From contig JAFGPC010000156.1 of assembly GCA_016926155.1 (NCBI GenBank), positions 1 through 42,345 on the forward strand: DNA of 42,345 bases. The letters run 5' to 3'. The position numbers were made by a program, and so were the translations under genes. Within the stretch, counting starts at the first letter, position 1. Every line of letters starts with the position of its first letter. A model generated the notes under the pieces. That model saw only the letters and a list, made by a program, of their open reading frames with translations. It searched no databases and was not told the DNA's origin. Shown piece after piece: positions 1,459 through 42,345 of this stretch. Source of the DNA: Sedimentisphaerales bacterium (GTDB taxonomy: Bacteria; Planctomycetota; Phycisphaerae; Sedimentisphaerales; Anaerohalosphaeraceae).

Positions 1459-3732
1459 CTACAGGTTATGTTGATATTCTCTTGCCTGTTCCAGGATCTG
1501 ATTGGCCTGTTGGACCTGCCCCAAAGCCCGGGCAATCGCGGCGGCCTTTTCGGCGGAGGCAACCGCTTCGGCAAACCGTCGTTCTTTTGCATATTTCTCC
1601 GCCAGCCAGAGGTGCAATTGAGGCGAGCGGTCTATGGAGGGATCTTTTGTTACGGCCGCCTTATAATGTTCGAGGGCCTGGTCAATCTTACCGGTCGATA
1701 TCAGAGCGATGGCCAGATCATAACGGTTCTTGAGATTGTCAGGTGCAAGCACAAGAAGGATCTCTAAAGACGGGATGGCCTTTGCATACTGCCCTTCGAT
1801 AAAGTATGCCCTGGCCAAAGTAGAGTGCATCCGGAGGGCATTATACTGCATATTGACACCCTTGGGAGCCAGCTCCACCGCTTTTGACAAATGCTCAATC
1901 GCCCTTCCCGCCTGCCCCTCCAACAAGAGTGCATATCCCAGATCATAGTGGGCAAATACGTTCCCTGGATCCAGTTCCAGAGCTCGTTGCGAATGGTCTT
2001 TACCCTGCCGGATCTGATTTTTAACATGATACAAAAGAAAACCCAATTTGACGTGAGCTCGCACACTGTTTGGATTCAATTCGAGTGCCTTGTAGTAATT
2101 CGTGATAGCGCCGTCGGCATCGCCGGCACGGTAGAACTGATCTCCGACACGTACAAACGAATAATCGTCCAGAAAACTTTCATGAATGCAGGTGATGGCT
2201 TCCGGAGCAAGATTGACAAACTCCGGGATATTGGCCGCCCGGTTGGAGGTAGTAAAACGATCCAGAAGAATCGGTGGGGTCGTTCTCCCCTGTTCATCAA
2301 AATGCGTCAGGAACAACTGGGTATAGTCCGAATACACCTTGGAAGAGAATACCAGCCACCGTCCATTGGGACTGAAACTATGCCAGGAATTCATTCTTTC
2401 AGTATTGCACTCTAACCGACGCGCTTTCCCGCCTTCCGCAGGGATTACATACAATGCACTATCCGGCTGAAGGAGCATGTAGTTTTCAGCCTGACAGAAA
2501 ACGATCCATTTGCCGTCCGGAGAGAATTTGGGGAAGTAATTACTTTTGCTGTTATGGGATGCACCTTCGACCGGTTCCGGAATTCCCCCTTGCCCCTCAT
2601 TGTAAGGAATTCGATAAATGTCGAACTTGAACTCCTTCTTTTCTTTAAGAAATTCGCTGACCTGATCGGATGTAAGCAGAATTTGATCCTTATCGGCGGC
2701 TCTTAACTCATAGGCCGGAGCTCGAGCAAACAGGATATATCTTCCATCCGGACTCCACATTGGATTGCTCTGTACATACGCCGGATCATCCGCCCCGGGG
2801 AGAGCCTGGAATGTTTCAGTCTGTCGATTGTATACGGCAAGGATGCCTTTGATGGGAAAAAACAACTGTGAAAAAGCCAATGGTTCGGTAGCGACAAATA
2901 CGGATCGGTCCTTGACGGTACTGACTACAAGATTGCCGTCAGGCGAGACCTGGCTGAGAAGACCGAAAGTCTGCCTGCCATCTTCTTTTTTATAATCATT
3001 CCAGGTCATAATATCTGTGGTGGCAAGAACCATCTGTTGCGCCGTCTGTGTAATAACATACGAGCCCTTGCTGCTGGCATAATCGACATCCATCCCGATA
3101 ATCCGACCATCGCGCGAAAACGAGTGGCAATTGCCACAGACGGGAAGATTCTCCAAGACAACAGGTGGTTGCGTTGAGCTCGATACCGAACCGAATCGCC
3201 ATCGAATTTTAGTTGGGTCTTTAACCGCATCATTGAAGGGAAGGTTCACTTCACGATAAAAAATGGGTGCGGCAACCGGATCCGGTGCAATGGAAAAAAC
3301 GACGGAACCGGTTTTGACAATATCCACCGCATTGGAACGGTTGGCTCCAATAACGAGCAATTGAGCCTGGCCCTGACCGACAAGGGATCGAATTCGATCC
3401 CATTGCCGGCGGGTTGGTATCCATCGATTCTGCCCTGTCAGAAATGACAGTTGCGCAGGCTTGCCGGTTCTTTCAAAATGGATAACCCATACATCAACGG
3501 AAGGATCAGATACCCATTGGAAAGTCGGTGAGGCAAAATCCTTCGGATATATCGCGCCATTGAGGGGTTGCATGATGGAAAGAGAAGCAGGCGGTCTTTG
3601 CTCTCTGTAGACACGCAGAACGCGAATCATAAAGAATCTGTCTTTCCACAGGAACCACCCACAAAGAAAGATTGTGGCAATTCCCACAAAAAGCAGACCG
3701 AATACCTTAACTCTCCTACACCGATCATCCAT
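1459..3732 (-). CDS. Membrane-anchored PD40 (TolB-like) propeller and TPR protein with one CxxCH motif
   Basis: The 757-residue protein has a single N-terminal membrane anchor (about residues 11-29). An Ig-like/carbohydrate-binding-like stretch follows, then a CxxCH heme-type motif at Cys199-Gly-Asn-Cys202-His203 in NLPVCGNCHSFSRDG. Next come PD40/WD40-like repeats marked by SPDGRYILF, SPDGKWIVF and SPNGRWLVF (about 315-470). The C-terminal third carries TPR units (about 530-750). The family is common in Planctomycetota and Verrucomicrobia, but its function is not established as far as I know. The single CxxCH suggests one c-type heme or a structural cysteine pair outside the cytoplasm. A well-spaced promoter lies about 70 bases upstream. 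It probably forms a two-gene unit with the GH43-like gene. No enzymatic role is claimed. Confidence 0.75.
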   Translation of the reverse strand: MDDRCRRVKVFGLLFVGIATIFLCGWFLWKDRFFMIRVLRVYREQRPPASLSIMQPLNGAIYPKDFASPTFQWVSDPSVDVWVIHFERTGKPAQLSFLTGQNRWIPTRRQWDRIRSLVGQGQAQLLVIGANRSNAVDIVKTGSVVFSIAPDPVAAPIFYREVNLPFNDAVKDPTKIRWRFGSVSSSTQPPVVLENLPVCGNCHSFSRDGRIIGMDVDYASSKGSYVITQTAQQMVLATTDIMTWNDYKKEDGRQTFGLLSQVSPDGNLVVSTVKDRSVFVATEPLAFSQLFFPIKGILAVYNRQTETFQALPGADDPAYVQSNPMWSPDGRYILFARAPAYELRAADKDQILLTSDQVSEFLKEKKEFKFDIYRIPYNEGQGGIPEPVEGASHNSKSNYFPKFSPDGKWIVFCQAENYMLLQPDSALYVIPAEGGKARRLECNTERMNSWHSFSPNGRWLVFSSKVYSDYTQLFLTHFDEQGRTTPPILLDRFTTSNRAANIPEFVNLAPEAITCIHESFLDDYSFVRVGDQFYRAGDADGAITNYYKALELNPNSVRAHVKLGFLLYHVKNQIRQGKDHSQRALELDPGNVFAHYDLGYALLLEGQAGRAIEHLSKAVELAPKGVNMQYNALRMHSTLARAYFIEGQYAKAIPSLEILLVLAPDNLKNRYDLAIALISTGKIDQALEHYKAAVTKDPSIDRSPQLHLWLAEKYAKERRFAEAVASAEKAAAIARALGQVQQANQILEQAREYQHNL

Positions 3733-3801
3733 GATTCATTCACGAAATAAACCATTGAAACAGATGCCTTATCACTCAGGATAAGTCCTCACTCACAAAA
3801 G

Positions 3802-3830
3802 ATTATATCAAGTATTCTCCCTCTATGCAA
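3802..3830 (-). promoter_or_regulatory. Sigma70-type promoter for the PD40/TPR gene
   Basis: Read on the minus strand, TTGCAT (3830-3825) is followed by a 17-base spacer and a perfect TATAAT (3807-3802). Transcription would begin near 3795, leaving a leader of about 60 bases before the ATG at 3732. Spacing and -10 match the consensus; the -35 matches at four of six positions. Confidence 0.6.
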
Positions 3831-3907
3831 GGTATAGAAAATGCGGATTTCATATGGAAAAGGCAAAACACGGGACGATAGATATTACAACCGAGTCAAC
3901 AAGCCTA

Positions 3908-5581
3908 TCATATCGCATAGCTATCTGCGACGGCCTCAGAAATCTGCTCTTCTTCTTTTAAGGACTTAATCCGAACGGCCAGAACAGTACGATCATCACT
4001 TTGCATGGCATTCTGACTGAAACAATTTGCTTCCTCGCAGATAACCTCCACAAGACGGCCGACCTTCAACATACGATGGGATTCCAACAACGTCTCAAAA
4101 CGTTCCATGCCGTAATTCTCTTCGTTAATGTTCAGGTTTTCCACGACTCCATCGGAAACGAACACGAGTGTATCGCCCGGCCGCAATGACTCCGACCGAC
4201 ATTGCAGGGTCAGTCTCGGCTGTATTCCCAGAAGTATGTTTCTTGCATTACACAAGGCAGCAACAGGTGCATGTTTGTCGGATGAGATAATCCGGGGCTC
4301 GGGTTGATGGCCACAATTAGCATATTTCAATTGCCCTGTCGACACATCATAAATCGCCATAAACACCGCCGCAAATCCCCCTTCGGGGGCCATTCGATAC
4401 AGATTGTAATTCACCTCGGCCGCAAGAGACTCCAACCCATCGTGATGATCCGCCCAGGCCAAAAAGGAGGTCTTGAGAACGGCGGTGAGAAAAGCAGCCG
4501 CCATCCCATGACCGCAGACATCACTGAATAGAATCGCCACTTTTTTATCGTCAAGCCGGACTACATCAAAATAATCTCCCCCGACCAGCTCAGCGGGTCG
4601 GAAGGAGGCGGCCCAATCCAAATGATACGAAAGAGGCATATGGTTCAAGGCCGGGAGAAATCGCTCCTGTACCCGTCGTGCCTGAACTATATCGTTATTG
4701 ATACGCTCCGTATACCGCTTAAGCTGAGTAAAAGCCTTGCGCAATTGAAAGGCCTTTTCCTCATTGTCATACTCGATGCTCCCCACGATCATAAAGAATA
4801 GGTAGACAAGGCTGAACAAAACCAGAATCGCCAGACACAGAACAACAGACAAATACCACAGTTCATGAAGCAGGGCATAGAACAGACTTGGTCCCATCAC
4901 CACAAGAACGGCTAGTGCACCATAGACAGGGGCACTGCGAAAGAAAACGCGATGATCCCGCAGGTTCTTATGCCGGCTTTCAAACCAGTGCACAAGATGA
5001 CTGAACCGTAGTGTACAATAACTGTAGTCTATCGTTAGTATCCCTTCTCGAATTCGAGTTTCCGTACAGGCAATATGCTGACCGGACTCACAGAAGAGAG
5101 AAAACAGATCATCATTCAAATCCTCCGATAGAATCCGTTTGATTTTACGTTGATATGCCCACAGAAACGCGATTATTTCCCGTATTTGATCCCGCTCAAG
5201 GCGTACGTCAAAATCACAGGTATGAATGCCTATCCATATTAAAAAACGCCATAATGTATTTAATTGGTCGAGCGAGTGATCCCGGATCAATTTTTGGCCG
5301 GCATAAAAGTATTCGATATTCCCTTCGCCAATCAATTCAATTCGAATCTGATTGATGCCTTGCCCTTCCGCATATATTCGGCCCTCCATTTCCAGCCACC
5401 CGGCAAAACGCAAGACATCTGACCACAAATCCGTACGGTGCAACCGCAGGCTCTTAAATAAGACCCAAAACCGGGACGTCAGAGGTAATTGTGTCTTTAT
5501 TGAACTTGATTGTTTATCCGGAATCATATTGACTTCCCACGTATTGACATTTCCCGTACCCGAAACCAATGGAGCCTGCAT
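3908..5581 (-). CDS. SpoIIE-type PP2C serine phosphatase with N-terminal sensor region and two membrane helices
   Basis: The 557-residue protein is split into three parts. Residues 1-212 are soluble and match no domain I recognise. Two membrane helices lie at about 216-236 and 241-266. A coiled-coil linker (270-305) then leads to a SpoIIE/PP2C phosphatase domain. Diagnostic motifs are GGDYFDV (metal-binding Asp336), FSDVCGHGMAAA (Asp354) and FVSDGVVE. Such RsbU-like phosphatases dephosphorylate anti-sigma-factor antagonists and so switch on alternative sigma factors. No RsbV, RsbW or sigma partner is next to it. The start at 5581 has an AGGGGG ribosome site just upstream. It is divergent from the azoreductase gene and shares a 168-base upstream region with it. 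Confidence 0.85.
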   Translation of the reverse strand: MQAPLVSGTGNVNTWEVNMIPDKQSSSIKTQLPLTSRFWVLFKSLRLHRTDLWSDVLRFAGWLEMEGRIYAEGQGINQIRIELIGEGNIEYFYAGQKLIRDHSLDQLNTLWRFLIWIGIHTCDFDVRLERDQIREIIAFLWAYQRKIKRILSEDLNDDLFSLFCESGQHIACTETRIREGILTIDYSYCTLRFSHLVHWFESRHKNLRDHRVFFRSAPVYGALAVLVVMGPSLFYALLHELWYLSVVLCLAILVLFSLVYLFFMIVGSIEYDNEEKAFQLRKAFTQLKRYTERINNDIVQARRVQERFLPALNHMPLSYHLDWAASFRPAELVGGDYFDVVRLDDKKVAILFSDVCGHGMAAAFLTAVLKTSFLAWADHHDGLESLAAEVNYNLYRMAPEGGFAAVFMAIYDVSTGQLKYANCGHQPEPRIISSDKHAPVAALCNARNILLGIQPRLTLQCRSESLRPGDTLVFVSDGVVENLNINEENYGMERFETLLESHRMLKVGRLVEVICEEANCFSQNAMQSDDRTVLAVRIKSLKEEEQISEAVADSYAI

Positions 5582-6580: not shown

Positions 6581-7873
6581 ATGAAAATGAACATATACAT
6601 CCACCTGCTTGTGATTTTTGTAACTATATCCCTTGTTTTTTACGGATCTTCTTTTGCCTCAGATCCCAATGAATTGGTGAGTTTGCAGGATTATCTTCGG
6701 TATGCCGCCATGCATAATGCCGGATTGCAAAGTCGGTTTGAAGAATTCAAATCCACCATCGAAGAGGTGCCGCAAATGAAGGCTCTTCCGGATCCGCAAT
6801 TTACCTTTGGCTATTTCATCGAAGAGGTGGAAACGAGAGTCGGTCCCCAGGAACAGCGGTACGGGATTATGCAGATGTTCCCCTGGTTCGGCAAGATCGA
6901 AGCTCGAACGGATGCAGCCGCCGCCGCTGCCAAAGCCGCTCGACAACGTTATGAAGCAGAGAAGCTGAAACTGTTCAACGATGTGAAAAATGGATTCTGG
7001 GAATACGCCTATCTGGGCCGGGCTGTGGAGTTGGGTCGGCAGAACGAAGAATTGATGGGGCATTTTGAAGAGGTGGCTCGCGCCCGATATATCGCAGGGG
7101 CAACACCCCATCCTGATGTGATTCGCGCCCAGATCGAACTGGCGATCCTGCAGGACAAATTGCAAACCCTGCAAGAGAAGCGCAGGCCTTTAACAGCCAA
7201 TCTCAACCGGGTATTAAACCGCCAACAATCCTTACTCCTTCCCTGGCCAAAACCGATTGTGCACCAAACGGTAGGAATCCAATGGGACGACCTCGTCGCT
7301 CAACTTCGAAAAGCCAATCCTCGGCTCAAGGCTTTAGATCATGCCCTGGACGGCGCCCGAAGTAAGGTTGTACTCGCCGAGAAACGCTCCTACCCAGATA
7401 TCGGGATCGGAGTGGATTGGATACGCACCGGCGAAGCAGCGATGCCCGTCCACGACAGCGGCAAGGATTCGGTCATCGCCATGTTTTCCGTCAATATACC
7501 CCTTTGGGGCGACAGCTACAGTGCAGGCAGGCGGCAGGCCCGGGCCGATGTTCGGCAAGTACAGGCCCAGCGAGTACAGTTGGAAAACGATCTTGTCGCT
7601 CGGGCAGTCCGTGTGCTATTCGAACTGGAGGATGCCGAACGAAAGGTAAACTTATTCAACGGAATCCTTATCCCCAAGGCCAAAGAGATGCTTGAAGTGG
7701 CTGAAAATGCCTATCGCACCGACACGGTGGATTTCCTGACGTTAATCGACGCCCAGCGAACCCTGCTGAACTTCGAGCTGGCGTATGAAAGAGCAGTGAC
7801 CGATCACCAGCAACGATTGGCTGAACTGGAGATGCTAGCCGGAAAAGAGCTTAATCCCGTTCCATTGCAATAA
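6581..7873 (+). CDS. TolC-family outer membrane channel of the metal efflux system
   Basis: A signal peptide (MKMNIYIHLLVIFVTISLVF, cleaved near SFAS) is followed by the two repeated OEP/TolC domains with long helical hairpins. Typical stretches are the N-terminal LPDPQFTFGYFIEEVE segment, an Ala-rich helix near 110-130, and the C-terminal helix with DFLTLIDAQRTLLNFELAYERA. I chose the ATG at 6581, which has GGGGA upstream and starts directly at the signal peptide. An ATG at 6536 would add 15 residues and has no ribosome site. There is no lipobox. As part of a CusCBA-like complex it would form the outer membrane exit duct. The next two intact genes downstream include the matching adaptor and pump. 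Confidence 0.88.
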   Translation: MKMNIYIHLLVIFVTISLVFYGSSFASDPNELVSLQDYLRYAAMHNAGLQSRFEEFKSTIEEVPQMKALPDPQFTFGYFIEEVETRVGPQEQRYGIMQMFPWFGKIEARTDAAAAAAKAARQRYEAEKLKLFNDVKNGFWEYAYLGRAVELGRQNEELMGHFEEVARARYIAGATPHPDVIRAQIELAILQDKLQTLQEKRRPLTANLNRVLNRQQSLLLPWPKPIVHQTVGIQWDDLVAQLRKANPRLKALDHALDGARSKVVLAEKRSYPDIGIGVDWIRTGEAAMPVHDSGKDSVIAMFSVNIPLWGDSYSAGRRQARADVRQVQAQRVQLENDLVARAVRVLFELEDAERKVNLFNGILIPKAKEMLEVAENAYRTDTVDFLTLIDAQRTLLNFELAYERAVTDHQQRLAELEMLAGKELNPVPLQ

Positions 7874-8329: not shown

Positions 8330-9994
8330 ATGACAGGGGTAAAAATTTGGATTGGTTCCTGGATCAAAGACCTGTTGATTCTGGTCTTTTTACTCATCGG
8401 CTTTGCCGTGGGATTTTCCATTCGACCCCTGTTTTCAGGTAATAGTGGCGTATCCCACACGGAGGAGGTTACCGAAAGCCAGACACAGACAATCTGGACT
8501 TGTTCCATGCATCCGCAGATTCGACGATATGAACCCGGTCTTTGTCCTATTTGTGAAATGGATTTAATCCCACTATCTCAAACGGAATCGGCACTGACCC
8601 AAATCGAACTATCGGAAGAAGCCGTCAAATTAATGGAAATACAAACCAGCCCCGTAGAACGAAAATTCATCACCTCCGAAGTGCGAATGGTTGGAAAAAT
8701 AGAATTTGATGAAACCCGGGTCAAGTCAATCACAACGTATGTCCCAGGGCGGATTGACCGGTTGTTTGTCGATTACACGGGCATTACGGTCCGTCAGGGT
8801 GATCATATGGTTGAGTTGTACAGCCCCGAATTGATCAGCGCCCAGGCTGAATTGCTCCAGGCCTTGAATCGGGTGCGCGATCTCTCGCCGGGATCGGCCG
8901 ACACAGTGCGTAATTCGGCCCAAACAAACCTGATCGCTTCCCGCGAAAAACTTGGTCTGTTAGGACTTACTGAAAAACAAATCGAACAGATCGAAAAAAG
9001 CGGGAAAGTTCTGGACCGTTTAACCATTTATGCCCCACGGGGAGGAATCATAATTGAAAAGAACGCCACAGAAGGGATGTATGTGCAAACCGGTACGCGG
9101 ATCTACACCATTGCAGACCTGTCACAGCTCTGGGTCAAGCTGGATGCATACGAATCGGATATGATGTGGCTTAGATATGGCCAGGAGGTGGAATTTACCA
9201 CGGAATCCTATCCCGGTGAGGTGTTCAAGGGCACAATCAGCTTTATCGATCCGGTGCTGAATGACCGCACGCGCACCGTCAAGGTCCGGGTGAATGTGCC
9301 CAATTTTGATGAGAAGCTTAAGCCCAATATGTTTGTTCGCGCCGTAGTACGGTCCCAAGTCGCTTCAGCGGGAAAAGTAATGGATCCGAGACTGGAGGGA
9401 AAGTGGATCTGCCCGATGCACCCGGAGATTGTCAAAGATCACGCCGGAACGTGTGACATCTGCAAGATGGATCTGGTTATCGCACATTCGATGGGTTATG
9501 TTTCCACCGGGGATTCTTTTGAGCCTCCTCTGGTGATCCCGACTTCGGCTGCGTTGATTACAGGCAAACGTACGGTTGTTTATACGTCCGATCCCAACAG
9601 TGAAACACCTACGTATCTACTGCGAGAAATCGTTCTGGGGCCCAGGGCGGGGGATTGGTATCTGGTGGAAAAAGGATTGCACCAAGGACAACAGGTGGTC
9701 ACCAATGGCAATTTTAAGATTGACTCGGAAATGCAGATTCGCGGCAAGATCAGCATGATGAATCCTACCCCGGATTCTATGCAGGAAGAGAGCCAGATGA
9801 CTACACTTGTTTCACGGAGCGAGCAGACAATCTGCCCCGTCATGGGCTTTGCTGTCAACAAAGACATCTTCATTGAATACCAGGGTAAGAAAATATACTT
9901 CTGTTGTGCAGGATGCGAGGAAAAATTTTTGGCGGAGCCGGAAAAGTATTTGACTAAGCTGCCTCAATTTCAAATCAATAGATCAGACAAGTAA
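8330..9994 (+). CDS. CusB-like RND periplasmic adaptor with two heavy-metal-binding domains and a C-terminal YHS domain
   Basis: The 554-residue protein has an N-terminal membrane anchor (about 14-31). A first heavy-metal-binding domain lies at 56-81 (TCSMHPQIRRYEPGLCPICEMDL). The membrane-fusion core follows with barrel-sandwich, hairpin and beta-barrel parts (about 90-345). A second heavy-metal-binding domain lies at about 356-383 (ICPMHPEI ... CDICKMDL), then a membrane-proximal region, and finally a YHS domain at about 500-545 (CPVMGFAVNKDIFIEYQGKK, CCAGCEEKF). CusB-type adaptors link the inner-membrane pump to TolC and pass Cu(I)/Ag(I) to the pump. Having HMBD domains on both sides of the core and a YHS at the end is richer in metal sites than classical CusB. 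Start supported by AAGGA upstream. Confidence 0.92.
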   Translation: MTGVKIWIGSWIKDLLILVFLLIGFAVGFSIRPLFSGNSGVSHTEEVTESQTQTIWTCSMHPQIRRYEPGLCPICEMDLIPLSQTESALTQIELSEEAVKLMEIQTSPVERKFITSEVRMVGKIEFDETRVKSITTYVPGRIDRLFVDYTGITVRQGDHMVELYSPELISAQAELLQALNRVRDLSPGSADTVRNSAQTNLIASREKLGLLGLTEKQIEQIEKSGKVLDRLTIYAPRGGIIIEKNATEGMYVQTGTRIYTIADLSQLWVKLDAYESDMMWLRYGQEVEFTTESYPGEVFKGTISFIDPVLNDRTRTVKVRVNVPNFDEKLKPNMFVRAVVRSQVASAGKVMDPRLEGKWICPMHPEIVKDHAGTCDICKMDLVIAHSMGYVSTGDSFEPPLVIPTSAALITGKRTVVYTSDPNSETPTYLLREIVLGPRAGDWYLVEKGLHQGQQVVTNGNFKIDSEMQIRGKISMMNPTPDSMQEESQMTTLVSRSEQTICPVMGFAVNKDIFIEYQGKKIYFCCAGCEEKFLAEPEKYLTKLPQFQINRSDK

Positions 9995-38352: not shown

Positions 38353-39129
38353 TCAGGCCAAATCCTGCATCGCCACGGCGGCGACCAGGGCATATACACG
38401 GGCAGCGCCAACCTCCTTCAGGGTACGCGCACACTCATTCAGTGTCGCGCCGCTGGTAGTGATATCATCGACCAGACAGACGGTTTTTCCCGAAAAATCA
38501 TGCCCGCGACGAACGGCAAAGGCCCCCTTGACGTTGCGTTTTCGCCCGGCCGGCGTCAGGTTCCACTGCCGCATGGTGTAACGAATGCGGACCAGGTCCG
38601 TACTGATCAGTGCTACGTGCGACTTGAGCCCCTTGCATAAAAGGTGGGACTGATTGAAACCCCGCATCAATCTCCTGCGCCAGTGCAAAGGAACAGGCAC
38701 AAAATAGTCAATCCGCCCGACAAACGAAGCCGTCTGCAGGACTGCATCCAGCAACGGACAGAGCTTTCGAGCCAGTTCGGGCCGGTCGCGAAATTTCATG
38801 GCCAGTACCAGATTCCGCAAGGTCGGTCCATACACTCCTGCCCGGGCAATCCCATCCACTTCCAGGTTGAGCCCCTGACACTGCCCGCAACGGCCCTCCA
38901 CCAGTCCATACCGGCTGGCATCACGTCCGCAGGTGGGGCAGTAATCGCCCACTGTGCTCTCCTGCAGGCCCTGCCAGCATTGACGGCACAGTCCCCCTTC
39001 ATTTTCCTCCACTGGCTCACCACAGCAATCGCACACTCCCGGCCAGAGCAGATAATGGACAGACTGCACCAGCTGCGCAGATGCCTTTCGAAATCGACGG
39101 TATAGATTGCCTCCATTCGTGGAAATCAT
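38353..39129 (-). CDS. comF: ComF-family amidophosphoribosyltransferase-like protein
   Basis: The product of about 258 residues has cysteine pairs typical of ComF zinc ribbons (CDCCGEP, CRQCW, CPTCGRD, CGQC) in the first third. The phosphoribosyltransferase binding loop VCLVDDITTSGATLNECA follows near residue 220. ComF acts in DNA uptake in naturally competent bacteria, though many homologues have unclear roles. The preferred ATG at 39129 follows an alternative in-frame TTG at 39153. It precedes murJ on the same strand and follows the three-gene surface operon. Confidence 0.92.
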   Translation of the reverse strand: MISTNGGNLYRRFRKASAQLVQSVHYLLWPGVCDCCGEPVEENEGGLCRQCWQGLQESTVGDYCPTCGRDASRYGLVEGRCGQCQGLNLEVDGIARAGVYGPTLRNLVLAMKFRDRPELARKLCPLLDAVLQTASFVGRIDYFVPVPLHWRRRLMRGFNQSHLLCKGLKSHVALISTDLVRIRYTMRQWNLTPAGRKRNVKGAFAVRRGHDFSGKTVCLVDDITTSGATLNECARTLKEVGAARVYALVAAVAMQDLA

Positions 39130-39177: not shown

Positions 39178-40005
39178 TTATTTCAGGTCGAAGAGAGAAT
39201 TGTTAATCGGATCAAACCAGCCCAGGTTCATCGCCGTCGAGTCCACTCCGTAGATGTTTTCTGCGTCCAGATCCCCCATTTCACGCGGATCAATATGCCC
39301 GTCGGTCCAGCCGATATTGGCACGGCTGCTATGGCGAAAATGGATCGACGGCGACAGGAAAAAGTCCGTCAGCACATTGCCGTCAAAGACGGTAAACGGC
39401 GGCTCGGCAAAGGAGTATTCGACATACTGTCCATCCTGAAGGCTCAGGGCGCAGTCGGCAAACATCAACGTCTCGCCGGGGGAACGCACTTCCGTTGTGC
39501 GAGTCGTCATCGAATAACGGTGCTCATACGACAGGCTCACATCGGATCTCCATAAGGAGCTGCCCAGATACGCCATATTATAGCCGTATCCCCCGCAGCC
39601 CTGCTCGAAATTGGCCGCCCATTGCTGGCCTTGCACAAAAGCCACGAGCTGCGAACACTGTTTGACCTTGCCGTCGGCCAGGAATGTGGCCAGCGGACTC
39701 TGCAGCGGATCGAACGGCTGATCCAGATCCTGCCGCATTCCATGCCATCGTTGCAGGCCGCTGTTGTTCCACATATCAGCCGCAGCAGGAACAAAGAAAC
39801 CCTCACTCTCAGTCGCATAACCCAGATTGGCAAAGACCAATTGCCGCAGATTGGACCGGCAGATTACCGTGCGCACCTGGCTCCTGGCGGCCAGCAAAGA
39901 AGGCATAACCAGACTCATCAGGATTCCAATGACAACAAGCACTACCAGTAACTCGATCAGAGTAAAAGCTTGAACTGCTGTATACTTGGATTGTTTTATT
40001 CTCAT
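39178..40005 (-). CDS. Prepilin-like secreted protein (H-x9-DG family)
   Basis: The 275-residue protein has a type IV prepilin N-terminus (AFTLIELLVVLVVIGILMSLVMPSLLAA) cut before the Phe of FTLIE by a prepilin peptidase. The C-terminal H-x9-DG motif (HSSRANIGWTDGH) is typical of the large planctomycete pseudopilin family (DUF1559-like). The gene lies seven bases after the surface-protein gene and is likely part of its operon, so it could assemble into a short pseudopilus that carries or pushes surface factors. Start is ATG 40005 with GGAG upstream; a TTG at 40011 is less likely. Confidence 0.85.
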   Translation of the reverse strand: MRIKQSKYTAVQAFTLIELLVVLVVIGILMSLVMPSLLAARSQVRTVICRSNLRQLVFANLGYATESEGFFVPAAADMWNNSGLQRWHGMRQDLDQPFDPLQSPLATFLADGKVKQCSQLVAFVQGQQWAANFEQGCGGYGYNMAYLGSSLWRSDVSLSYEHRYSMTTRTTEVRSPGETLMFADCALSLQDGQYVEYSFAEPPFTVFDGNVLTDFFLSPSIHFRHSSRANIGWTDGHIDPREMGDLDAENIYGVDSTAMNLGWFDPINNSLFDLK

Positions 40006-40012
40006 ATCCAAT

Positions 40013-41128
40013 CTACTCCGCTCTCACCCTCCATTCTTCCTCACACAGCCATTCCTGACTGAACGCTATCAGATCCGCCGGAGTTACCCTCAAATCCTGA
40101 TCCGCCATATCGCATCGGCTCGAATACGCCGCTTGTCCAAACTGTGTGCGGTACGCCCCGGAGAGCAATGCAAAATCCTGGAAATCTACCGTTCCATCCA
40201 GATTGATGTCGGCGGCATATCGCTGCTCATGCAGCACGCCAACCGCTTCCAGATCAAATCCACCCGACCCGAACGTCAGCCATACATCATAAATTGGATG
40301 GTCGCTCGCATACGACTGCCGGTCGATTCCCAATGTCGGATCGACAAACAGCGGTGCTTCATCCCGCCAGTCACCGGTCCCGGGGATATCCACCAGTCGG
40401 ACATAACGAACACGACCCAGATCAACCAATCCCTGCAGCACCAGAGGATGGTCCAGCAGATCGGATAAATCGAACGGAGTGCCCATGCTCAGTTTATACG
40501 AATTCGGATGCTTCCCGGCCAGGTTGTGAACATCGCTGATTTGGATGGTTCCATATCGACCCACGGCAGATTCCGTCAGTGAAACCGAGGGAAAGCGTGC
40601 AAAATGTTCCCCGTCCGACGAAACTTCCACAAAAGCCAGTTCAGCAAACATCTGACCGGTTATGGAACCGCTGGGGAAAGTATTCAAGGAGACGAACGCA
40701 TTTTCAAAAACGGCAAAATCATAACCGCGTGAATTACGAATGACTCCATTCGGATCGTCCGGGACATTGGGATCGCCAAAGATCAATGTAATCGTTCCCG
40801 GCGGTTTACCGATGGCGATTTCCTCTGCATCCAGGTCACCGAGACTTACGATATCGTAATTATTTCCTGTAACGGATCCCAGGGCTTTTTTCGGATCACC
40901 CCACTCCCCATTATCCACCAAGATATCATCAGATGGCATATAATCTTTCCACCCTGTCGCCCAGCCGCGAAAAATCGGATGCAGAACAAAATTGGGATCC
41001 TCCCCCGATTGAATCGATCCCCCTTCCGAAACCAGATAGGCGATTATGCCCGGATCAGTATAGGGGCCCGCCCAGACGCAGCAGGCCAATATGTGTCCCA
41101 ATGTGATGAGTATCAATAGCCTTCTCAT
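40013..41128 (-). CDS. Secreted surface protein with a C-terminal dockerin-like repeat
   Basis: The 371-residue protein has a signal peptide (MRRLLILITLGHILACCVWA). Its core reads DIVSLGDL, GTITLIFGDP, RGYDFAVFENAF and AELAFVEVSSDGEHFARFP, the pattern of a family labelled only as cell surface protein. As I recall, that label also occurs beside btuB in Bacteroidota B12-uptake loci; I could not check. The C-terminus (about 310-365) has a dockerin-like calcium loop DINLDGTVDFQDF and a second, degenerate loop. No membrane anchor is visible. It begins 16 bases after the PEP-CTERM gene stop, and the prepilin gene starts seven bases behind its own stop. Confidence 0.75.
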   Translation of the reverse strand: MRRLLILITLGHILACCVWAGPYTDPGIIAYLVSEGGSIQSGEDPNFVLHPIFRGWATGWKDYMPSDDILVDNGEWGDPKKALGSVTGNNYDIVSLGDLDAEEIAIGKPPGTITLIFGDPNVPDDPNGVIRNSRGYDFAVFENAFVSLNTFPSGSITGQMFAELAFVEVSSDGEHFARFPSVSLTESAVGRYGTIQISDVHNLAGKHPNSYKLSMGTPFDLSDLLDHPLVLQGLVDLGRVRYVRLVDIPGTGDWRDEAPLFVDPTLGIDRQSYASDHPIYDVWLTFGSGGFDLEAVGVLHEQRYAADINLDGTVDFQDFALLSGAYRTQFGQAAYSSRCDMADQDLRVTPADLIAFSQEWLCEEEWRVRAE

Positions 41129-41144
41129 GCTTCGTGGTCCATCC

Positions 41145-41906
41145 TTATCGAACTCTTTGTCGAAGGATAAGCCCGCCTACAGCCAACAACGCCAGTGTGG
41201 CCGGTTCGGGGATAATCGAGTCAAGTGCAAAATACGCCGGCGTATTCATACCCCACTGCCCAACGTCACTCGAAGTCAGGGTAAACTCCAGGCTCTGCAC
41301 TACGCCCAAATCGGATAAATCCACATATCTCCATGAATCAAGCAATTCGCTCTTGCCATCCCGAAAATCGGCCAGGGCTGTCTCGACGATTCCGACCACC
41401 TGACCGGCGGCATCCTTGCCGGTAATTGTCAATAGAAACCAATCCCCTTCCGAAAATGGATCGATACCAAACAACGCATCACCGTCTCGCATGGTATAAT
41501 ACGCGTAGTTATTATTCGTCACGGAGAATCCACTTACTAAGCTCGGTTCAGCAAATGTGATTACAGGTATCAGAGAAAATCCAACGAATCCAATGGCATA
41601 ATTCGATCCGCTCAGCGCGCTACCGGTAATCGCATTGTATTGTCCATCCGGACCGCTTATGCCGGCATCGGTCCTATTCGAACAGGCAAAACCTTCCCAT
41701 GAAGTCACACCACCACCCCAGTCCGTGAAACTGTTATTGAAATACCCCATCCCGCTGACAAATCCACCAGAGCCATCCTGCCCGTTCCAGTACGACTCCG
41801 GCCTCAGGGAAAGATCCTCAAAATCACTGAGCATGACCGGCTCAACTGTTCCGAACACAACCGACGTTGCCAAGAGAAATACGCTTGCTTTTGCCCACAC
41901 TCTCAT
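41145..41906 (-). CDS. DUF4465-like secreted protein with PEP-CTERM sorting signal
   Basis: From ATG 41906 the product has 253 residues: a signal peptide (AKASVFLLATSVVFG), a DUF4465-like beta-rich domain (FEDLSLRPESYWNGQDGSGG, FVSGMGYFNNSFTDWGGGVTSWEGFACSN, ISGPDGQYNAITGS), and a C-terminal PEP-CTERM tail (PEPATLALLAVGGLILRQRVR). The tail directs processing by an exosortase and surface display. Start is set by an AAGGAAGG ribosome site. It is the first gene of the three-gene operon behind the cobalamin riboswitch. Binding of cobamides or related tetrapyrroles at the cell surface is an inference from the riboswitch and from my memory of DUF4465 proteins in B12 loci. Confidence 0.8.
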   Translation of the reverse strand: MRVWAKASVFLLATSVVFGTVEPVMLSDFEDLSLRPESYWNGQDGSGGFVSGMGYFNNSFTDWGGGVTSWEGFACSNRTDAGISGPDGQYNAITGSALSGSNYAIGFVGFSLIPVITFAEPSLVSGFSVTNNNYAYYTMRDGDALFGIDPFSEGDWFLLTITGKDAAGQVVGIVETALADFRDGKSELLDSWRYVDLSDLGVVQSLEFTLTSSDVGQWGMNTPAYFALDSIIPEPATLALLAVGGLILRQRVR

Positions 41907-41949
41907 CACGATCACCTTCCTTTCAGAAATCACCTCATAACCTCATGGA

Positions 41950-42159
41950 CCACTGCAGCCCGAATCCGTCAATGCCGGCCGTCGTCGCTGTCGGCAGATC
42001 TGAGCAGCTCCGACGACCGACCCGCAAAAAGTACCGCAGCCCCGCCGGGCTGGAATGGAAATGGCACTACTGTGATTCCCGCAAGCGCACTATGATCCCG
42101 TCCGTCCGGCTCTGGCCGTTCCTTCGAGAAAGCCGGCGGCCTGCCGCCAACGCAGGCAT
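41950..42159. other. GC-rich leader segment between the terminator and the surface operon
   Basis: About 210 bases, clearly richer in G and C than the neighbouring genes, with several small inverted repeats. Two minus-strand frames read as protein-like stretches (one ends PFPFQPGGAAVLFAG..., another ends IDGFGLQWSMRL), but neither has a start with a ribosome site. It may be remains of a gene or structured leader RNA downstream of the riboswitch terminator. Confidence 0.3.
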
Positions 42160-42194
42160 AAAAAAACCGCCGCTTCCGCGAAGGAAACGGCGGT
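42160..42194 (-). terminator. Strong intrinsic terminator of the cobalamin riboswitch
   Basis: On the minus strand a 12-base stem (42194-42183 with 42177-42166, one G-U pair) encloses the loop TTCGC and is followed by at least six T (42165-42160). It lies about 115 bases downstream of the riboswitch aptamer end and before the first gene, as expected for a riboswitch that stops transcription when cobalamin is bound. Confidence 0.9.
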
Positions 42195-42216
42195 CAGAAA
42201 TATATGAGTAATCTCC

Positions 42217-42306
42217 TCATGAATTCTGATGTCGCATATCGGCCCATAAGCCAATACACTCCAAAGCCACGCCGGTATTCCAACTCGCGAGAACTACCGC
42301 ATGCAC
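42217..42306 (-). CDS. Possible 29-residue leader peptide between aptamer and terminator
   Basis: A GTG-initiated frame reads VHAVVLASWNTGVALECIGL and continues WADMRHQNS to a TGA. It fills the gap between the riboswitch aptamer end and the terminator. No good ribosome site is present in front of the GTG, and such a short frame can arise by chance. It is listed only because of its position in the leader. Confidence 0.15.
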   Translation of the reverse strand: MHAVVLASWNTGVALECIGLWADMRHQNS

Positions 42307-42310
42307 TCGA

Positions 42311-42345
42311 TCTCAGGCAGGTTTTCTGACTTGCATCCTGCCGAA
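42311..42345 (-). promoter_or_regulatory. 3' end of a cobalamin riboswitch aptamer (cut by the window edge)
   Basis: On the minus strand the sequence GCAAGTCAGAAAACCTGCC (within 42334-42311 region) matches the highly conserved 3' segment of cobalamin (B12) riboswitches, followed by TGAGA. The rest of the aptamer, including the B12 box, lies beyond 42345. A terminator 115 bases downstream on the same strand completes the expected arrangement. It would lower expression of the downstream surface operon when cobalamin is plentiful. Confidence 0.82.

Follow-up and report, generated by a model that had tools for sequence, protein, structure and literature searches.

We analysed a 42,345-nucleotide stretch of DNA from a Sedimentisphaerales bacterium (hereafter the window), which is the whole of contig C216 of the source genome (handle G000). 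Near its right end, the minus strand carries the 3' end of a cobalamin riboswitch, an intrinsic terminator and three genes encoding a DUF4465 protein, a predicted BtuH-type protein with a dockerin-like tail, and a type IV prepilin-like protein (Table 1). The genes are closely packed, with 16 bases between the stop of gene 1 (41145) and the start of gene 2 (41128), and 7 bases between the stop of gene 2 (40013) and the start of gene 3 (40005), exactly as reported in an initial annotation made from the sequence alone. Homology to B12-binding proteins of Bacteroides, together with the conserved arrangement in related genomes, suggests that this operon encodes a surface system for capturing vitamin B12, with the pilin as a partner.

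Table 1 Features of the riboswitch-linked operon (window coordinates).
Feature	Position	Strand	Details and basis
Cobalamin riboswitch aptamer, 3' end	42299..42345	-	RF00174 positions 143-189; remainder on contig C193:229-4 of the same genome
Intrinsic terminator, probable expression platform	42160..42195	-	13-pair hairpin + T run; -23.3 kcal/mol (fold)
Gene 1, DUF4465 (BtuJ-type), 253 aa	41145..41906	-	Hydrophobic N-terminus and putative C-terminal PEP-CTERM signal; Pfam, TIGR02595, PDB comparison
NNNYAY, counterpart of the DE-helix tyrosine (BtuJ1 Tyr146)	41499..41516	-	Residues 131-136 of the 253-aa form; BtuJ1 alignment
NTPAY, HI-loop motif with the conserved B12-binding tyrosine (BtuJ1 Tyr245)	41232..41246	-	Residues 221-225 of the 253-aa form; BtuJ1 alignment
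Gene 2, exported protein, 371 aa	40013..41128	-	Residues ~54-301, BtuH-type B12-binding domain (predicted); ~300-366, dockerin-like
ENAF (Asn143, Phe145)	40694..40705	-	Aligned with B12-contacting Asn399 and Phe401 of BtuH2
Two dockerin-type repeats, gene 2 C-terminus	40061..40210	-	Pfam, family profile, fold
Gene 3, prepilin-like, 275 aa	39178..40005	-	H-X9-DG motif; C-terminal GWFDPINNSLFDLK; single specific orthologue in genome
QAFTLIELLVV, type IV prepilin N-terminal cleavage/methylation motif	39940..39972	-	N_methyl, TIGR02532

The right end of the window falls inside the riboswitch. Searched alone, the window gave a 47-nt RF00174 match (42345-42299, minus strand) of 14.6 bits, under the gathering score of 31.5 bits. 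Minus-strand positions 1-50 of contig C193 are identical to window positions 42345-42296, this 50-base overlap occurs in only these two places in the genome, and the complete aptamer at C193:4-229:- scores 79.2 bits (E = 1.3e-19), above the gathering score. The initial annotation had read the 3' end of the aptamer at 42345-42311 and proposed, as a check, an RF00174 search with the flanking sequence added; with that flank the aptamer is complete, and it is the sole cobalamin riboswitch detected in this genome. The assembly thus breaks within the riboswitch (window 42345 / C193:1-50); the cassettes of G371, G519 and G561 likewise start within a few hundred bases of a contig edge, just ahead of DUF4465.

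The terminator (42195-42160) sits between the aptamer and gene 1, as an expression platform should; it had been described earlier as a 12-bp hairpin with a T run at 42194-42160. Between the aptamer and the terminator the minus strand showed no further gene; the initial annotation had named such a gene as a possible refutation. In 82 riboswitch leaders of related genomes, searched within 230 nt of the aptamer, terminators of -12 kcal/mol or lower were found in 56, compared with 2.4 expected from shuffled leaders. These terminators would be consistent with transcriptional repression by B12.

Gene 1 probably starts at the ATG at 41906, giving the 253-residue form, rather than at the GTG at 41933. 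It matches PF14717 (DUF4465) with an E-value of 3.6e-46 (158.2 bits against a cut-off of 25), confirming the family named in the initial annotation, and its nearest relative in the PDB is BtuJ1 of Bacteroides thetaiotaomicron. Eight diverse DUF4465 proteins, including 'Pan' of the planctomycete Mucisphaera calidilacus, bind B12 (PMC13398666), and the two diagnostic tyrosines, in the HI loop and the DE helix, are present in gene 1. The gene 1 protein therefore likely binds B12 as well; such binding by DUF4465 is already published (PMC13398666), and hence is not new. Gene 1 shares with the other DUF4465/IPR027828 proteins (BtuJ1 and BtuJ2 of B. thetaiotaomicron, and Pan) the domain, the NTPAY motif and the DE-helix tyrosine, and with DUF4465 of B. 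thetaiotaomicron the control by a cobalamin riboswitch. In contrast, it carries a putative PEP-CTERM signal in place of a lipoprotein anchor, and in this operon it is joined by a BtuH-type protein and a pilin, and not by TonB receptor or ABC genes. The PEP-CTERM signal, also part of the initial annotation, is upheld by TIGR02595 (16.3 against a cut-off of 16) and not by Pfam PF07589 (17.6 against 20.7).

Because gene 2 as a lone sequence gave nothing convincing against the PDB, its kinship rests on a family profile, a distant member and the fold. The profile, built from 36 relatives, matched BtuG1/BtuGH (8blw_B, 7e-14) and BtuH2 (7biz_A, 4.5e-12), and a single distant member matched the same two structures at 4.1e-16 and 4.2e-8, respectively. 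For the predicted structure (predicted local distance difference test score, pLDDT, 86.1), Foldseek alone found no match at E <= 0.001; VIA-align placed BtuH2 (7biz_B) first, at Z 12.6 with a root-mean-square deviation of 3.3 over 170 residues, and BtuG1 second (Z 11.7), with all others at 9.4 or below. BtuH2 contacts B12 via Asn399 and Phe401 among others (PMC8941943); both have equivalents in gene 2, and Asn143 is invariant across the 36 relatives. At the C-terminus, Pfam returned only a weak dockerin match (Dockerin_1, 19.6 bits, below the cut-off of 22.9), whereas the family profile matched solved dockerins (2y3n, E = 3.9e-10; fold Z 9.4).

By profile and predicted fold, then, gene 2 is a BtuH-type domain followed by a dockerin-like tail, and its homology and conserved residues suggest that it binds B12. 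The label 'dockerin-like surface protein' given in the initial annotation stands for the tail, through the profile and fold and not through single-protein Pfam, and is amended for the rest: the protein consists mainly of a predicted BtuH-type B12-binding domain that was not visible from the sequence alone. Two B. thetaiotaomicron proteins have a domain that it resembles, namely BtuH2 (7biz) and, in its BtuH half, BtuG1/BtuGH (8blw); gene 2 differs in lacking their PKD/Ig or beta-propeller part, in its dockerin-type tail, in not keeping the Gln333 of BtuH2 and in belonging to another phylum.

Gene 3 carries the prepilin motif above both cut-offs (N_methyl, 23.8 against 21.2; TIGR02532, 26.3 against 16.3), in agreement with its initial designation as a prepilin. 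Its model (pLDDT 91.5) has a long N-terminal helix; Foldseek by itself yielded nothing at E <= 0.001, and VIA-align gave weak pilin matches only (best 6xxd_A, Z 5.1). It shares the prepilin and H-X9-DG motifs with the H-X9-DG type IV prepilin-like proteins of planctomycetes and verrucomicrobia, from which its group is set apart as a separate orthologous group, usually with one member per genome, its own C-terminal motif and a tie to the riboswitch. In five genomes with 29-64 pilin-like matches each, the specific orthologue scored 337-390 bits over its full length and the next pilin at most 118 bits; the top-scoring pilin was the cassette member in all five. Riboswitch positions were known for 31 specific pilins; in 29 cases the pilin sits downstream of a same-strand riboswitch, at a distance of 0.15-3.0 kb. 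The remaining two are a pilin that begins at a contig edge and a second copy. Given roughly 30-60 pilins per genome, we estimate a chance expectation of about 0.03 per 6.5-kb stretch. Rows linked to a riboswitch group together in the pilin tree, with 2 label changes versus 9.7 in shuffles; L044_5821, the only pilin labelled unlinked inside the linked cluster, lies downstream of a second riboswitch.

We rejected the pilin as a chance neighbour on the orthologue scores, the riboswitch proximity and the tree clustering; the initial annotation was right to count it with the set. This conserved coupling across genomes shows gene 3 to be a dedicated partner of the putative receptors. Two further arrangements were recorded: a second full-length specific pilin away from the known riboswitch (G418:C1:212144-212944), and, at L044 (G515), two successive cobalamin riboswitches (3662-3940 and 6760-7031) with a pilin-like gene after each. 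We also weighed, and rejected, operon membership for the downstream comF gene (38353-39117): genes of the comF type come after the pilin in a few relatives, but are not known to be linked to B12.

We then compared 298 genomes of the class, many of them metagenome-assembled genomes (MAGs); the class was taken as Phycisphaerae by inference from named relatives (L139, L143). DUF4465 was found in 44 of these genomes. At 41 same-class DUF4465 loci, the riboswitch lies upstream on the same strand in 38, and the remaining three begin at contig edges; gene 2 is present at 39 and a full-length pilin at 36. Four of the five loci without a pilin run off the contig, and the fifth (L048) has an unidentified open reading frame reaching the contig end. 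The co-occurrence of these families with B12 riboswitches, proposed as a check in the initial annotation, is thus seen in related genomes. Both DUF4465-gene 2-pilin and gene 2-DUF4465-pilin orders occur, as do DUF4465-gene 2 fusions in either order.

RF00174 occurs in 274 of the 298 genomes, often as a single copy. At 40 riboswitch loci in genomes without DUF4465 we observed the pilin at 31 and gene 2 at 27, rates that may be biased high, as these loci were picked from the best-scoring riboswitches. Their first gene varies, including beta-propeller types (PQQ_2, SGL), PEP-CTERM proteins and unknown families; a riboswitch without DUF4465 usually precedes another secreted protein, followed by genes 2 and 3. 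Some first-slot proteins have no Pfam family (L098:989-2104, L109:7773-8864, L110:7773-9068) and are candidates for new B12-binding families. Separately, the riboswitches of L114, L116, L120 and L121 precede a gene of 716-835 residues, and their leaders are without the strong terminator of the capture cassettes; in L114, the only one tested, this gene encodes the class III (anaerobic) ribonucleotide reductase NrdD.

Beyond the class, the riboswitch, gene 2 and the pilin occur together in a Chthoniobacteraceae MAG (L137), where the first gene is of PEP-CTERM type, and in a Candidatus Hydrogenedentota MAG (L136); another Verrucomicrobia MAG (L138) has the riboswitch with a related pilin. Elsewhere among the planctomycetes the riboswitch is accompanied by another pilin family, DUF1559: L160 has two PEP-CTERM DUF4465 genes and then DUF1559; L082 has a DUF1559-like pilin, gene 2 and then DUF4465; and in L083 a DUF1559 pilin has a divergent riboswitch to itself. 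That two pilin families are joined to one regulon speaks for a functional link. The divergent riboswitches of L083 (G137) lie at 8596-8721 (-) and 8926-9130 (+), one for DUF4465 and one for the DUF1559 pilin. At L136:2802-5876 (+) the BtuH-type gene and the pilin form one 1024-aa frame with an internal prepilin motif, either a fusion or a lost stop, and the Kiritimatiellota bacterium B12222 chromosome (L163:7817-8596) contains four Acido-Lenti-1 RNA matches in a row.

The transport context was also surveyed. In the source genome a single FecCD permease shares a BtuFCD-type operon, away from the cassette, with a periplasmic binding protein and an ATPase; FecCD permeases were present in all 16 genomes tested. 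BtuFDC-type genes lie inside the cassette at L041, and a BtuF-type gene follows the pilin at L045 and L119; such adjacent BtuFCD-type genes recall the B12 loci of Bacteroides (btuB, btuG, btuH, btuJ, btuF, btuC, btuD), which share with the cassette the cobalamin riboswitch and several B12-binding surface proteins. Unlike those loci, the cassette has no BtuB and has a pilin-like gene. To our knowledge, all studied Gram-negative B12 uptake routes pass a TonB-dependent receptor. The source genome gave no TonB plug domain match at E <= 0.001, an absence that is not proof in a draft assembly about 96% complete, and ten secretin matches. Across 28 cassette genomes, 18 have at least one plug domain and 10, including the source genome, have none detected; two of these are single-contig assemblies (G515, G105). 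In one genome, a conventional B12 locus stands beside the capture cassette: at G057:C48:25169-36976, genes for a TonB plug protein and a FecCD permease lie downstream of a second cobalamin riboswitch and share its strand.

Taken together, we favour, at a probability of about 0.78, the reading of this operon as a surface capture system induced by B12 starvation, with the pilin as a partner. With enough B12, the riboswitch would close and the terminator would halt transcription; when B12 is short, the anatomy of the leader implies that the three genes would be made. The DUF4465 and BtuH-type proteins would then be exported and, judging from homology and conserved residues, would bind cobamides outside the cytoplasm, presumably held at the surface by PEP-CTERM sorting and perhaps by dockerin contact instead of the lipid anchors of Bacteroides. 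The pilin would most likely act as a pilus subunit or a pseudopilin, either displaying the receptors on the outer membrane or bringing them through it, and the single BtuFCD-type transporter would move B12 across the inner membrane. The outer-membrane step in this genome may do without a TonB receptor, and a pilus or pseudopilus route for B12 is possible. A surface system for catching cobamides was also the proposal of the initial annotation; it is the best-supported reading, and none of the three outcomes named there as refuting it (no aptamer with the flank added, an intervening gene, no co-occurrence in relatives) occurred.

Several observations weigh against this interpretation. Gln333 of BtuH2 is absent from gene 2 of the window, being present in more distant relatives (APGQ), and His476, Tyr510, Trp511 and Trp577, of which the Tyr and Trp residues contact the corrin, are not confidently alignable with gene 2. 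The PEP-CTERM and dockerin scores of the window proteins are marginal. At some loci outside the class (L084, L085), a riboswitch-controlled DUF4465 lacks a downstream pilin, which means that not every use of DUF4465 calls for one.

Two accounts of the pilin's role are sub-readings of the capture system. As a tentative possibility, it is a dedicated type II secretion pseudopilin that mainly exports or places the B12-binding proteins, and never touches or moves B12; in its favour, GspG and GspH type models give the best scores for the prepilin motif, several secretins occur in the genomes (10 in G000), and both binding proteins must get outside and have no lipid anchor. Against it, one pseudopilin per cargo set would be unusual, and a specific ligand or partner is suggested by the conserved C-terminal domain (GWFGPxDNSLFDL). 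We consider it unlikely that a retractable or short pilus takes the place of BtuB and TonB and itself conveys captured B12 across the outer membrane, in the manner of competence pili and DNA. The ten cassette genomes without a plug domain, two of them single-contig, and the FecCD permeases in all 16 genomes tested would fit such a pilus; the plug domains in 18 of 28 would not, absence from draft genomes is weak evidence, and B12 could enter by porins or other routes. Also in favour of such a pilus, dextran binds to pili-like fibres in Planctopirus and Gemmata (PMC5394234), which are likewise pilus-type surface structures linked to nutrient capture; they concern macromolecule uptake, in passages of that paper we saw no pilin gene tied to them, and the comparison is an analogy only.

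Two further explanations were weighed. The riboswitch could drive a wider surface or adhesion programme in B12 shortage, with proteins that bind other ligands such as glycans: CBM32/discoidin domains, too, are similar to the gene 2 fold (Z up to 9.4), polysaccharides are often the target of PEP-CTERM and dockerin proteins, and the first-slot proteins vary. We regard this as improbable, as B12 binding was found for both DUF4465 and BtuH where tested (PMC13398666, PMC8941943), and no glycan-binding fold scores as high against the gene 2 model as BtuH2 and BtuG1 do. A wrong contig join, with the riboswitch belonging to a different operon, is scarcely credible: the window does stop at a contig edge and the overlap is just 50 bases, but that overlap is exact and confined to these two places, and the identical order lies on a single contig in 38 of 41 relatives.

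Among open-licence papers, we found no literature linking PEP-CTERM or planctomycete pilins to cobalamin riboswitches, which is weak evidence of novelty; FEBS Open Bio 2026 makes no mention of pilins or PEP-CTERM. Both the gene 2 type of BtuH relative and the coupling of a pilin to a B12 cassette appear undescribed. The BtuH domain has been reported in Bacteroidetes and Firmicutes (PMC8941943), and gene 2, which has no Pfam match for it here, would extend it beyond these phyla, while further candidates for B12-binding families come from the cassette's first slot. A B12-controlled cassette with a pilin-like fixed partner, found in at least three phyla and with two pilin families, including in genomes without a detected TonB plug, raises the question of whether a pilin takes part in vitamin uptake, and offers a likely function for one group of planctomycete pilin-like proteins, which are abundant and unexplained. 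Should surface proteins capture B12 and a dedicated pilus or pseudopilus take it past the outer membrane, with neither BtuB nor TonB, planctomycetes and their relatives would have a mode of uptake not described before.

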